From contig JAPPGH010000029.1 of the NCBI GenBank assembly GCA_026914155.1, positions 40,395-104,394 of the forward strand: a DNA stretch of 64,000 nucleotides. Direction: 5' to 3'. Under the pieces are notes generated by a model. That model had not been told where the DNA came from, did no database searches, and saw nothing but the letters and a program-made list of their open reading frames with translations. This DNA is from Candidatus Palauibacter rhopaloidicola. GTDB taxonomy: Bacteria > Gemmatimonadota > Gemmatimonadetes > Palauibacterales > Palauibacteraceae. Each line of letters begins with the position of its first letter. The first letter of the stretch is position 1. Made by a program: the position numbers and the translations under genes. Positions 1 to 4,672 of this stretch are shown piece by piece.

Positions 1-193
1 ACGATCGGGCGAGCGCCTGCGCGTCGCCAAACGCCGACAGCCGGGAGTGCTTCAGCTCCTCCGCAGCGCTTCGCATCCCTTCCAGTATGGACGAGCAGTC
101 GAGCGCCTGCTGCGTCCGGCGAATGCTCTCCATGGCGGTGCTCGCAGCCTCCATCTGACGAAGGAGCCCGTTGGTGTCGTGGAAGCCCTTCAT
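1..193 (-). CDS. Hypothetical protein, truncated by the window edge
   Basis: The reading frame starts at an ATG at 193 and runs off the left edge; 64 codons are visible. Its start overlaps the stop of the PadR gene as ATGA, so the two are probably translationally coupled. The visible part is hydrophilic and mostly helical in composition, rich in Ala, Glu, Gln and Ser, with no membrane segment, consistent with a small cytoplasmic helical protein. PadR genes are often followed by a partner gene whose product acts with or is controlled by the regulator, but no family is recognised here. If the tRNA-Ala fragment at 845-886 is an attachment site, this gene lies inside the integrated element. Confidence 0.55.
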   Translation of the reverse strand, partial: MKGFHDTNGLLRQMEAASTAMESIRRTQQALDCSSILEGMRSAAEELKHSRLSAFGDAQALARS

Positions 194-483
194 ACCGTGC
201 TCCAATTGAGGGCGAGCGATCGCATCCGCTCCCAAAGGCTAAGCACGCGCTTGCCGTGGCCGGTGGCCTGATAGACTCTCCGCGCGACTCCGCCTTCGGG
301 TGCGTCTTCCAGTTTGGACTCGACGTAGCCCTTCTCCGCCATCCTACCCAGAGTCACGTAGACCGTGCCGCGCTTCAATTCATCGCTCGCACGGATCATC
401 TCTAGGCCATACATGCGGCCCTGGTTCACGAGGAGGTCGAGGATGACCGCTTCCTTCTTCGACAACTTCGGAATCTCGTCCAT
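190..483 (-). CDS. PadR-family winged-helix transcriptional regulator
   Basis: This is a small DNA-binding repressor of about 97 residues, the size of the minimal PadR (PF03551) domain. The N-terminal half carries the winged helix, with the stretch around YGLEMIRASDELKRGTVYVT matching the PadR recognition-helix region. The segment EKGYVES and a later RRVYQAT strand fit the wing. PadR proteins usually respond to small molecules or stress and repress their own operon. An upstream ATG at 489 abuts the -10 box and could not be on the transcript, so the ATG at 483 is preferred. A dyad over the promoter suggests autoregulation. The gene is coupled to the truncated gene downstream by ATGA. Confidence 0.85.
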   Translation of the reverse strand: MDEIPKLSKKEAVILDLLVNQGRMYGLEMIRASDELKRGTVYVTLGRMAEKGYVESKLEDAPEGGVARRVYQATGHGKRVLSLWERMRSLALNWSTV

Positions 484-489
484 GAACAT

Positions 490-518
490 ATCTTATGTCG
501 TGTAAGACTTGCCGACAA
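490..518 (-). promoter_or_regulatory. PadR promoter with overlapping dyad (probable autoregulatory operator)
   Basis: Read on the minus strand there is TTGTCG (518-513), a 17-bp spacer, then TAAGAT (495-490). A start point about 7 bp downstream falls on the ATG at 483, so the transcript would be leaderless; no Shine-Dalgarno sequence precedes that ATG. An inverted repeat TCTTA-N7-TAAGA (491-507) overlaps the -10 box and is a good candidate PadR operator. Confidence 0.5.
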
Positions 519-844
519 GATCCTCGTCGGGATAGGTGGAAATGACCCTCTCCACCGACCAGCAACGCGCCTGAATGGCTGCGAAGCTGGGACTGCGAGA
601 CAGTGGCTGGATAGGGTGGATTCGAACATCAAGAACCGCAGACGGGAAGCTACATGGGAATGGACGAGTTCGGGACCGGTTTCTGGACGAAGAGTAATCT
701 CGGACTCCCGCCATTCGACGGCGTTTTCCCGCTGTTTCAGTAAGGCGGACTCCGATTTGGCCTTGTCGGCAAGAACGGCAGATCGTGCAGTCCCAGTTGA
801 CTTTAGGTGGTTTCTTGCCGTGAATCAGAACCCTTGATCGACGT
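519..844. other. Stretch with no supported gene, left of the tRNA fragment
   Basis: About 325 bp of visibly lower GC than the rest of the window. Short open frames on both strands lack a Shine-Dalgarno sequence and resemble no protein family. It may be non-coding or decayed DNA at the end of an integrated element. No integrase, terminator or RNA gene was recognised. Confidence 0.5.
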
Positions 845-886
845 TTTGCAAGCAGGAGGTCGTCGGTTCGAATCCGATCGGCTCCA
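845..886 (+). other. 3' fragment of a tRNA-Ala(TGC) gene; probable attachment-site remnant
   Basis: The 42 bp match the 3' part of tRNA-Ala exactly in layout: anticodon loop TTTGCAA (845-851, anticodon TGC 847-849), 3' anticodon stem GCAGG, variable loop AGGTC, T-arm GTCGG-TTCGAAT-CCGAT (862-878), 3' acceptor strand CGGCTCC (879-885) and discriminator A (886). The acceptor keeps T at the position of U70, the G3-U70 alanine identity element. Sequence before 845 does not match: the 5' anticodon stem, D-arm and 5' acceptor are absent, so no functional tRNA can form. Breaks in the anticodon loop are typical of tyrosine-recombinase integration into tRNA genes, where the outer end of the element is marked by such a 3' copy. 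Confidence 0.75.
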
Positions 887-934
887 TCCCCTCAACAGCC
901 CCACCGCCGGGAGGCGGTCGGATCGTTCAATCGC

Positions 935-2098
935 TCAGCGGGCCTCGATGAAGAGGTCGGCGATCTCGTAGATCGCGTCTCCGAACACGAGTGCGCCGCC
1001 CTGCGGATAGCCGATGTCGGCGATGTTCGCGGCGACGGCGACGGCCACGCCGTCGTCCGGGTAGATGATGAGCAGCGCGTTGCCGCCGATCGCGCCGCCC
1101 GCGTGCCCAACGGCGTGGCGCCCGCCCCCTCTCGAGGGCGGAAAGAGGCGCCAGCCGATCCCGACCCCGATCTCCTCGCCGGAGGCAGTGCGCTGGGATG
1201 TCCATACGAGGTCCAGCGTCTCCTGGCTGAAGAGTCCCGGCTCGAGGTGCGCGTGGGCGAAGCGCAGCAGGTCCTCCGTCGTGGAGAGGAAGCCGCCCCC
1301 GGCCCACTTGTGGGAATTGTCGATGTAGCGGGCGTTGATGAGGCGGCCGTCCGGCGTGCGGTCGTAGGGGCGCGCGCGGTTCACGATCAGGCTGTCGGTG
1401 TGGTCTCCGCCCGTGTGGAGCATCCCGAGCGGCCCGAACACCTCCTCGCCCAGATACTGCAGGAACCCGCGTCCCGAAGCCGCCGCGATCACGGCGCTCA
1501 TGAGGTTGAATCCGTAGCTCGAATAGGACCATTCGGTCCCGGGCGTCGCGACGAGCGGGTCGTCCCGGAAGAGGTCGAGCGCCTCGAACACCGTCTCGTA
1601 GCGCTGCGTGAAGTAGTACTCCGCTTCGATGTCCAGGTAGTGCCGGATTCCCGCGAGATGTCCGGCCAGGAGCCGCGTCGTGATCTCCCCCTCGGGCTTG
1701 CGGGGGAAGGAGGGGACGTACGCCTGCACCGGCGCGTCGAGGTCGAGTTCGCCCCGCTGGTGAAGGAGCGCGGCGCCGGCCGCGGTCAGGATCTTGGAGA
1801 CGCTCCCGATCCGGTAGCGGGTGAGCGGCGTGGCCGGGCTTCGAAGCTCGATGTCCGCGTACCCCATCCCCTCCGACCACACGACGCGCCGATCCACAGA
1901 AACCGAGATGGAGAGGCCGGGGATGGACATCGCCCGCCGCAGCGAGTCGAGCTTCCCTCGCGAGGTCGCAATGACGTCGGCCCACTGCCCCTGGTCCGTC
2001 CGGGCCAGTGGCAACGCCTGAGCCGCGACGTCGGCCACGGTCGCGTGGGCCAGCACAGCGACCGCGCCGACCGCCAGCCCTCCGTACCGTCCTCTCAA
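935..2098 (-). CDS. Exported serine hydrolase, beta-lactamase/LACTB-like (PF00144)
   Basis: This 387-residue enzyme has a hydrophobic N-terminal signal (about 1-27, ending VAAQA), so it is probably periplasmic. The catalytic pattern of the class C beta-lactamase/DD-peptidase fold is visible. S99-V-S-K102 is the SxxK nucleophile motif. YSS around 192-194 sits at the YxN position with Ser instead of Asn. H332-A-G334 is the third-strand motif. The GHLAGIRHY segment (146-154) resembles the LACTB group more than resistance enzymes, so an esterase or peptidase role is likelier than antibiotic hydrolysis. It is the last gene of a minus-strand run following two beta-propeller genes, with a 40-bp gap. 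The substrate is unknown. Confidence 0.85.
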   Translation of the reverse strand: MRGRYGGLAVGAVAVLAHATVADVAAQALPLARTDQGQWADVIATSRGKLDSLRRAMSIPGLSISVSVDRRVVWSEGMGYADIELRSPATPLTRYRIGSVSKILTAAGAALLHQRGELDLDAPVQAYVPSFPRKPEGEITTRLLAGHLAGIRHYLDIEAEYYFTQRYETVFEALDLFRDDPLVATPGTEWSYSSYGFNLMSAVIAAASGRGFLQYLGEEVFGPLGMLHTGGDHTDSLIVNRARPYDRTPDGRLINARYIDNSHKWAGGGFLSTTEDLLRFAHAHLEPGLFSQETLDLVWTSQRTASGEEIGVGIGWRLFPPSRGGGRHAVGHAGGAIGGNALLIIYPDDGVAVAVAANIADIGYPQGGALVFGDAIYEIADLFIEAR

Positions 2099-2138: not shown

Positions 2139-3383
2139 TCAGTTCACGTCCGGCGGCAGACGCTTCACGACCACGCTCTGCACGTCGAGTTCGTCTCGTT
2201 CGATGAAGGCGACCAGGCCCCCGGGGCCGAACGCGTCGGGGAGCGGGGGTGCATCGGTGCGGTAGCTGCCGACGTAGCCGCCATCGACTGTCAGGACGTC
2301 GATCGGTCCATCGTCGAGCGGCGCGTCACCGCGGCGCTGCACCCAGATCCTCCCGTTCCAGGTCGTTCGGAGTCCTCGGACCAGGGGAACCTCGTCAAAG
2401 AACTTCAATGTCTCGATCCGCTCCCGCACACGATCGCTGCCACCGCCCCCCGTGACGGTTATGCCGCCGGCACCGCGGATGACGGACCCCCGTCCTGCTT
2501 CCCGCAGACGGCGATCCCTTTCTGCCCGTTCCATTCTCTCGGTGACCGGCTCGGGCGAGAACGGCCGGGTCAGAATCCGCGAGACGCCGGTCTCACTGCT
2601 TGCGATCTTGATGGCGTAGTCGGAGGAGTCCGAATACGCCAACCACCCGTCGGGAAGCACGTCCACCTCGAGTTCCGGTTCGAAAGCCAGACGCCTGTTT
2701 TCCTCCCCGCGTGGCGGTTCCCATGCCTCCGCGATCGTCTCCCGCTCCACCTCCTCGCCCGCAAAGCTCCATCGCTCGACCCGGCGTGCCGGCGGTCCAA
2801 CGTTCTCGGGCAAGCCCCCCAAGAAAAAGACACCGGCGAGCTGCGAGCCTACAACAACGGACTCGGCATTATGCTCGGGGAACATCCACGGGACGCGGTG
2901 CCCCCTCTCACTGTCCGTGCGGACCTGACGCTCATACTCACCGTGCGTGTCAAAGACCTGATACGCTTGATGTCCAAGGTTGGCTATCACGACCCGACCA
3001 TCGGACATGACCGCCATCGCCGTGGGAGTCCTGAACTCGCCCGGCCCCTCCCCGAGGCGGCCGAACTGGCGGAGCAACTCTCCGCCGGGCGCCACAACGA
3101 CGACCCGACCGGCGAGGGAATCGAGTACGTAGAGATTCCCGGCTGTGTCGAATGCGACCTGGCGGACATGGCCGAACTCCTGCCACGCCTCGCCGACTGC
3201 GGACCCGACGCGGTAGACGTCCTCGAAGTCGGGGTCCAGCCAGCGGTCTTCCCCGGGAAGTTCGATGACCTCCTGGGCACCGGCCCGCTCCGCCGCCGAT
3301 AGCGCGCTGATCGCAGCGACGCACGCGCCGAACGCCCGGGTTCCAAGTCGACTTCTCGCAATCCTCATGGCTCTCGTCCACAT
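2139..3383 (-). CDS. Exported 6-bladed beta-propeller protein (second of a tandem pair)
   Basis: A signal-peptide-bearing protein of about 414 residues, close paralogue of the gene directly upstream. Both share an N-terminal region ([11 protein letters not shown], then VYRVG), the propeller motif GNLYVLD followed by [11 protein letters not shown], and the C-terminal segment [13 protein letters not shown]. These match the bacterial 6-bladed beta-propeller family (PF17170-like, NHL-related), a binding scaffold rather than an enzyme. The chosen ATG at 3383 shares a base with the upstream stop (TGATG), indicating coupling; an internal ATG at 3368 is an alternative. A longer open frame upstream overlaps the paralogue and is not real. 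The ligand is unknown. Confidence 0.85.
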
Positions 3384-4672
3384 CAGTTGACCGTACGCGG
3401 CAGACGCTTCACGACTACGGTCTGCACGTCCAGTTCGTCGCGTTCGATGAAGGCGGCCAGCCCTTCCGGGCCGAACGCGTCGGGGAGCGGCGTGGCTCCG
3501 GTGCGGTAGCTGCCGAGGTAGCGGCCATCCGCGGCAAGGATATCGATGGGGCCGTCGCTTACGGGCTCGTCGCCCCGCCGCAGGACCCAGATGCGGCCGT
3601 TCCAACTCGTGCGCAGGTCTCGCACGATGGGAACCTCTTCGGCGAACTCCAGCGTTTCGATCTGCTCGCGCGCCCGGGCCCCGCCGCGGGTCCCGGATAC
3701 CACCAGTCCGTCAGCGGATCGGGAGACCGAACCCTCGGAACGATCTTCGATATCCCTCAACCTGCGGTCCTTCTCCGCCTGCATCACGCGTTCCGTAACG
3801 GGCTCGGGCGAGAAGGGCCGGGTGAGTATCGTACTGATCCGGCCGCCATCCCGTTCCGCGATCTTTACCGCGTACGCGGAGGAGTCCGAGAACGCGATGC
3901 GTCCGCCGGGGAGCACGCCCGCGAAGAGCTCCGGCTCAAATCCTCTCCGGGGGCCACGGCTCATGATTTTCTGCCGCCCTCCGGGGAGGACGTGCTCCCT
4001 CAGCTTGGTCCAGGCGGGGCCCCAGACGTCGGCTGCGGGCTCCACCGCCGCCTCATCCCCACTGAGGGAGATCCGTTCGATCGTACGTGGGTCGGGGAAG
4101 GCGATCGTGGTTTCGCCCGGCACGGCCTGAAACGCAGAGCCAAGCACTATCGCACCCCGAATGAGAGATTCTCCACCAACCTCGGCGTCCATCTTCCGGA
4201 TCCACGTGACGCGGCCCATTCGTACCATGCGTTCGAGGTCCCCGGTGGGAGCGAAGATGTGGTAGGCGCGATGCCCCATGTCCGCGACGACGACCCTGCC
4301 GTCGCGCATGACCACCATGTCCAGGGCCGACTGGAATTCACCCGGCCCCTCGCCTCTGCGGCCGAATTCGCGAACGAAGTCGCCCTGCGGGTTCACGACG
4401 ACGACCCGCGCAGCCATGCGATCGAACACGTGCAGGTTCCCGGCCTCGTCGAACCCCACGCGGCCGATCGTGCCGAACTCCTGCCACGCCTCGCCGATCG
4501 CGGCCCCGACGCGGTAGACCTCCACGAAGTCGGCCTCAAGCCAGCGGTCCTCGCCCGGAAGCTCCATGACTTCCTGAGCGAGTCCCCCGGTCGCGGCCGC
4601 GAGTGTCCCCAACGCGGTCAGCAACGTGGCAGCGATTCGGATCGGCCTCTCTTTTCCGAGCATGTCGGTCAC
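3383..4672 (-). CDS. Exported 6-bladed beta-propeller protein (first of a tandem pair)
   Basis: This 429-residue protein has a signal peptide of about 33 residues ending GGLAQ, then [11 protein letters not shown] and repeated NHL-like propeller blades, for example GNLHVFD followed by [11 protein letters not shown]. It lacks catalytic motifs; family members are secreted or periplasmic binding scaffolds. It differs from the downstream copy mainly by an insert near residues 150-230 that includes an Arg-rich stretch. It lies 10 bp below the SRPBCC gene and shares a TGATG junction with the next copy, so the run is probably one transcript. A third, more distant paralogue is at 39088-40377. The tandem arrangement indicates local duplication followed by divergence. 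Confidence 0.85.

Follow-up and report, generated by a model that had tools for sequence, protein, structure and literature searches.

A tRNA-Ala(TGC) 3' fragment at the right end of a likely integrative and conjugative element of Gemmatimonadota, and a possible circle-sensing switch at the integrase start codon

In phage lambda, the sib site lies beyond int, across the attachment site, and brings about retroregulation of int. RNA-OUT of IS10 is an antisense RNA that inhibits by pairing near the transposase start codon, and engineered toehold switches combine a free 5' toehold with a stem that holds the start codon and that a complementary RNA opens. Retroregulation by sib is mentioned in the accessible portions of PMC2951348 and PMC6379469. 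The available part of the Islander paper (PMC4383910) places the crossover in the anticodon loop for 2083 of 3919 islands. In the sections of PMC2951348 that concern KplE1, int genes whose promoter overlaps attL are self-regulated, while two converging genes that were tested were not. For ICEKp1, the excerpt of PMC13023037 describes int expression altered by integration state, and stem-loops in the int 5' UTR. The locus presented here resembles the tRNA-targeted islands and ICEs of Islander, as the available part of that paper (PMC4383910) describes them, in that an intact tRNA gene and a displaced 3' fragment mark the ends. The tRNA fragment by itself is routine, such tRNA-targeted insertions being well known.

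The window, meaning the whole 64,000-nucleotide stretch of DNA that was analysed, corresponds to positions 40395-104394 of contig C28 from a genome (G000) of 63 contigs and 4.1 Mb. The contig extends 40 kb to the left beyond it. Five features of the window, in its own coordinates, enter the account.

190-489, reverse strand: PadR-family regulator gene (PF03551, E 1e-10), element cargo.
726-732, forward strand: TTCCCGC repeat that recurs in right ends, a candidate integrase arm site.
767-820, forward strand: right-end hairpin of the element, a recurrent repeat with arms at 767-775 and 811-820 (reverse-strand fold -16.4 kcal/mol).
778-793, forward strand: the 16-mer GCAGATCGTGCAGTCC, found letter for letter in the integrase leader at C28:453-468 (reverse strand); its opposite strand would be the proposed trigger.
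845-886, forward strand: displaced 3' half of tRNA-Ala(TGC), bases 32-73, comprising the attR core and remainder; assigned from 43-bp identity and empty sites.

An initial annotation had described the 42 bp at 845-886 as positions 32-73 of a tRNA-Ala, U70 included, with the break at the anticodon loop. Both statements are confirmed. The same genome has an intact tRNA-Ala(TGC) gene (G000:C62:11079-11151, reverse strand), whose 3' part matches window 845-887 without a difference over 43 bp. In our numbering of this tRNA, the fragment spans bases 32-73; base 32 opens the anticodon loop, and T70 of the G3-U70 pair is included. A pattern search of the genome allowing up to 3 mismatches found two places only, the fragment and the intact gene, while the reversed-pattern control found none. 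ARAGORN called no tRNA gene at 845-886. The lower GC content remarked upon in 490-844 is likewise borne out, at 0.549 against 0.682 for 900-64000.

The hydrolase encoded beside the fragment (window 935-2098) was matched at E 1e-60 or better in 22 of 60 genomes, its own included, and is 88-97% identical in eight other genomes of the same genus. Four same-genus genomes (G008, G009, G010 and G015) have an intact tRNA-Ala directly before the hydrolase gene and the left flank of C62 on the other side of the tRNA; the two flanks have only 43 bp in common, and in G015 the match to the C62 left flank spans just 146 bp. No tRNA was found at the hydrolase within the 1.5 kb examined in G002, G004, G007 and G014. 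Because the empty sites join both flanks with 43 bp shared, the insertion is regarded as shown, and the comparison with relatives that had been proposed initially came out in favour of an inserted element. Window 1-844 is almost certainly the right end of an element whose insertion site is the anticodon loop of tRNA-Ala(TGC), with the fragment as its attR. The host chromosome picks up again after 886. Unbroken sequence joins the PadR gene to attR and so places the gene inside the insertion, which supports its earlier assignment to the cargo.

Two side observations concern the borders of this region. Window 1-34 (C28:40395-40428) exactly repeats the 34 bases that precede a 100-N gap at C28:40295; with the same bases on both sides, the gap may be a scaffolding artefact. 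On the chromosomal side, window 2139-4672 holds two adjacent, related beta-propeller-type genes, and cargo ORFs at loci L154 and L225 resemble them by eye.

An intact tRNA-Ala with an integrase gene next to it had been expected to the left. Both were found, and the 3' 43 bp are identical, but they stand on contig C62 and not on the contig of the window, and the gene there, 56 bp from the tRNA, encodes only the C-terminal half of a tyrosine integrase (C62:10226-11023, 265 aa, PF00589, E 2e-18). The 56 bp separate its stop codon from the 3' end of the tRNA, on which the gene converges. An N-terminal part of a tyrosine integrase lies at C28:43-429 (reverse strand), 40 kb left of the window. It is 71% identical to residues 1-129 of an intact integrase on contig C31, and the C62 piece is 70% identical to residues 127-386 of the same protein. 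At the breaks, the two pieces have the short stretch CGCTGTCCCAGC in common; on C62 the break comes just after a right-end hairpin of the family described below. We infer, for two contigs that are joined by no sequence at hand, that the pieces are one integrase gene split by a second element, and that C62:1-10225, with its giant protein, would belong to this second element.

The element body had been predicted to lie leftwards, and there C28 carries, besides the integrase N-terminal part, conjugation genes at about 2.1-15.4 kb. These encode relatives of VirB11, TraG/VirD4, VirB8, TrbL, TrbI, CagX, VirB4, VirB3 and TrbC, the VirB4-like match being below the NCBIfam cut-off. The scanned proteins included no recognisable relaxase; the sequence at hand does not cover the whole element. 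An ArdC-like protein is encoded next to the integrase N-terminal part, and other cargo on C28 includes an S24-type repressor-like protein, a histidine-kinase hybrid, a P450 and others, as well as proteins with bacterial Ig domains and leucine-rich repeats (C28:18894-26871). C62:42-10088 encodes a repeat protein of 3348 residues. Ig/leucine-rich-repeat proteins and giant repeat proteins are kinds often tied to symbiosis. The integrase beside the tRNA, taken with the conjugation genes, makes it likely that the element is an integrative and conjugative element (ICE), which is probably disabled now, as its integrase gene appears to be split by a second insertion. Given additional right ends at C28:21787 and C28:36493, the 41 kb left region probably consists of several insertions stacked on one another. 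Neither this nor the split integrase gene had been anticipated in the initial annotation. At its opposite end, too, the contig of the window breaks inside an integrase gene of the same family (C28:146895-147401, reverse strand), and several contigs of this genome end in such genes.

The hairpin at 767-820 recurs at 12 places in G000 with E below 1e-3 (22 places are listed at E up to 10). A search for the 16-mer within it, with letter 14 given as Y, hit 29 of 100 genomes including this one, at up to 58 copies per genome; the reversed pattern gave none. Right ends were also retrieved by their other half alone (n=30, 4 of them too near a contig end); in the 26 that were usable, the 16-mer had no mismatch in 16, one in 7, two in 1 and four in 2. 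The distance from the 16-mer to the core at 845 is 51 bp in the window and 48-51 bp in other elements. Of 139 right ends, 90 have TTCCCGC at the same place, compared with 1.2% of random 55-mers, and GCGGGAA copies follow the integrase stop at the other end of the element.

Sixteen units running from leader to right end could be delimited, 3-18 kb in length; units and pairs were sought in one expected orientation only, with int pointing away from the interior of the right end. A core repeat of 9-13 bp was found at constant spacing in 6 of the 16 (48-51 bp after the 16-mer and 110-118 bp from the end of int); another 5 lacked a complete left end in the available sequence, and the last 5 had no repeat at the expected spacing. 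The integrase is the gene common to the delimited units. No ORF cluster is shared by all 16, the widest being present in 9; several clusters stem from similar DNA and not from a probable gene. A simple pattern test, which misses some tRNAs, assigned the distinct targets of 138 right ends to tRNA 3' halves (6), reversed tRNA 5' halves (10), integrase genes (6) and places elsewhere (116); 2 further right ends were too short. Right ends within same-family integrase genes were seen at C62:10164-11023, L141:1501, L144:2366, L148:2484, L152:3040 and L161:1318; a few sites in these genes seem to serve as targets for other members of the family. The right ends that stand before a reversed tRNA 5' half are those of L040, L163, L199, L200, L205, L214, L239, L247, L262 and L268; these ten elements would restore the tRNA 5' half, which is the rarer kind. 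Directly upstream of the integrase leader, sequence is conserved within two groups (L257, L306, L157 and L181; L160 and L225). This stretch contains no convincing gene and is possibly a transfer origin or an RNA.

Integron-like attC cassettes were considered, as the hairpins recur in one orientation, and were dropped in view of the complete units with int, the core repeats and the empty site. Rfam gave no match at gathering score for 10 loci totalling 122,542 bases, and no hairpin match was found in viral contigs. Paper searches, confined to open-access literature, met no description of the element family. The 16-mer can serve as a practical end marker for this amplified family.

Hairpin matches in genome contigs amount to at least 117 stretches, and most of the named ones are titled Gemmatimonadetes or Gemmatimonadota. 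Among the matches listed, some are titled Gammaproteobacteria, Deltaproteobacteria, Bryobacterales, Chloroflexi or Nitrospira. The Gammaproteobacteria label of bins G102, G103 and G105 looks wrong, their rplB being 100% identical to that of G058, a genome of the window's class. In public MAGs, titles that look wrong on these grounds are those of JAPPJO01, JAPPHB01 and VYDD01, named Gammaproteobacteria, whose rplB is the same as in a genome belonging to the window's class. A Deltaproteobacteria contig, G104:C134, is nearer in tetranucleotides to element-bearing genomes than to its own rplB contig, which suggests misbinning, composition being weak evidence; its hairpin context stands also in a second contig. 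The Bryobacterales and Chloroflexi matches that were checked sit on contigs under 10 kb. A spread beyond Gemmatimonadota is thus not supported, with SB0662_bin_11, RHO3_bin_37 and the Nitrospira bin outside the comparison. Marine sponges were the source of many of the sample sets concerned.

The 16-mer of the right end also stands 20-24 nt upstream of the integrase start codon. When the stretch from the 16-mer to about codon 6 was folded, each of the 79 distinct leaders was predicted to have its start codon paired with the leader arm, at a mean z of -3.8 against dinucleotide shuffles. Letters 1-5 of the 16-mer are free in this fold and letters 6-16 form the arm, with letter 12 bulged. Leaders that differ from the 16-mer at no more than 2 letters (n=67) have standard pairs in 654 of 670 pair cells, compared with 141-342 of 670 when the 3' side is slid by 1 or 2 bases as a control. 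The strongest sign for the stem is a synonymous choice. Of the 67 leaders, 62 have alanine at codon 2, and in 62 of 62 the codon is GCA, with the letter that is predicted to pair with U14. Among 213 alanine codons from three ORFs of the window, by comparison, the share of GCA is 2.3%, and none of the 38 in the body of an integrase is GCA.

As the 67 leaders had partly been retrieved through the 16-mer itself, a retrieval based on integrase proteins was added. It yielded 23 alignments with usable upstream DNA after 9 were dropped, 3 for short upstream sequence and 6 for lack of an aligned N-terminus. The 16-mer was exact in 9 of the 23 and had one mismatch in 10, two in 2, five in 1 and six in 1; the cases with five and six mismatches, and one of those with two, belong to distant integrases. 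Random 90-base windows, drawn from loci that hold true sites, contained a match with at most 1 mismatch in 7 of 2000. The first impression of an invariant 16-mer did not survive this retrieval, as GCGG for GCAG accounts for 9 of the 10 single mismatches, a variant that retrieval by exact letters had hidden. Minimum-energy folds, computed without a shuffle control, place the start codon of distant integrases from other families in a stem as well, built from other letters. The start-codon stem is very probably real.

A switch that reads the state of the element could be built from these parts. In the inserted state, the integrase message would run into host DNA and the start codon would stay shut. 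Once the element is excised or has entered a new cell, its two ends would be joined, and the message would continue across the junction. Its tail would then carry the complement of the leader toehold and stem arm (window 820-767, read leftwards); by pairing with the leader it would free the start codon, so that integrase would be made and the circle would re-insert. The int message does point at the attachment core, and the RNA copied from the right end in the circle would be the exact complement of the 16-mer. In 11 of 11 elements, the 140 nt that follow int contain no run of 5 or more T, which counts for such a switch. In a two-strand model, the mean probability of an unpaired start codon was 0.001 for the leader by itself and 0.27 when the 16-nt trigger was present, while a scrambled trigger gave 0.003 (26 units); the window's own element gave 0.0005 alone and 0.25 with trigger. 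That the modelled opening averages only 0.27 counts against the switch, as does the right-end loop, which is partly paired in its own fold.

Differences between leaders and right ends bear on the predicted pairing. In a hand count from a small sample, partly retrieved by the 16-mer, 9 kinds of transition keep the pairing through G-U and 1 does not, and 3 transversions break a pair. Element L433 has G at letter 3 in leader and right end alike. Strict letter-by-letter covariation was tried and rejected, as it fails at letter 12, which is A or G in the leader and always A in the right end (20 A/A and 6 G/A among 26 pairs); many sites were retrieved via the 16-mer itself. Seven distant elements were followed for a right end, and one was found in two. 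In these (G092 and G096, integrases 45-46% identical to the C31 integrase), a tRNA-Ile fragment is preceded at 50-51 nt by a leader-like stretch whose orientation is the predicted one. No right end was seen over about 60 kb in G057 and G066, nor over the short stretches available in G094, G118 and G139.

The explanation as a whole, uniting tRNA insertion, ICE and leader/right-end switch, is in our estimate evenly balanced on sequence and modelling. Its most specific part, that integrase translation would be opened solely in the circle by the joined-end trigger, a natural and toehold-like sensor of topology, is a tentative proposal that falls slightly short of an even chance, taken jointly with the proposal that the switch, if real, is common to a large, highly amplified element family of Gemmatimonadota. 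If true, the element would sense its integration from its own DNA topology, by base pairing, without a regulator protein. Searches of the open-access literature returned no match for control by leader-trigger pairing.

The main rival to the switch takes the 16-mer as a DNA site for one protein, the integrase or an unrecognised excision factor, which would aid recombination at the right end and repress int at the leader. Identical letters in both places suit such a site, the integrase is the common gene where no ORF cluster is found in all 16 units, and self-regulation of int is documented for KplE1 in the available part of PMC2951348. A protein site, however, leaves unexplained why 11 of the 16 letters lie in the start-codon stem and why a rare codon is kept; the TTCCCGC/GCGGGAA repeats at both ends are better candidates for arm sites, and the same part of PMC2951348 describes two int genes that converge on a tRNA, the arrangement found here, without self-regulation. 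We consider this rival rather unlikely. Less probable still, and improbable overall, is an effect of the sign known for lambda sib, in which the leader-tail duplex of the circle would be cut by RNase III or would block the ribosome and so lower integrase. The geometry is the same, with the site beyond int across the attachment site, and a 16-bp duplex of about -31 kcal/mol is predicted; yet the leader is already shut in the model when alone, pairing opens it, and low integrase in an incoming circle would hinder insertion. That the fragment is a chance or duplicated piece of tRNA, with no element end here, could draw on the position of the intact tRNA on another contig and on the 100-N gaps just outside the window, but is extremely improbable given that the empty sites of four genomes join exactly both flanks with 43 bp shared and that an integrase adjoins the intact tRNA.

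Set beside the islands treated in the available part of the Islander paper, the element of the window differs in that its integrase appears interrupted and its right end bears a hairpin matching the leader. It is sib-like in that a site lies 48-51 bp beyond the core with int pointing at it, so that any effect would depend on integration state; unlike sib, the right-end site is complementary to the int leader, and the predicted sign is opposite. As with intS of KplE1, so far as the accessible text of PMC2951348 goes, the attachment region and the int control region have sequence in common, whereas the int promoter of KplE1 overlaps attL and here int converges on the tRNA, with its leader more than 1 kb from attL. 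Transcription of int from the tRNA promoter, of the ICEKp1 type, does not apply to an int that is convergent with the tRNA, as judged from gene orientation and not from promoter mapping. ICEKp1 combines promoter switching with attenuation in the excerpt of PMC13023037, while the control proposed here is translational and would act by RNA pairing. Pairing near the start codon of a recombinase gene is shared with RNA-OUT of IS10, except that here it is predicted to open the start codon. Compared with engineered toehold switches, the switch proposed here would be a natural one, its trigger made available by DNA topology.
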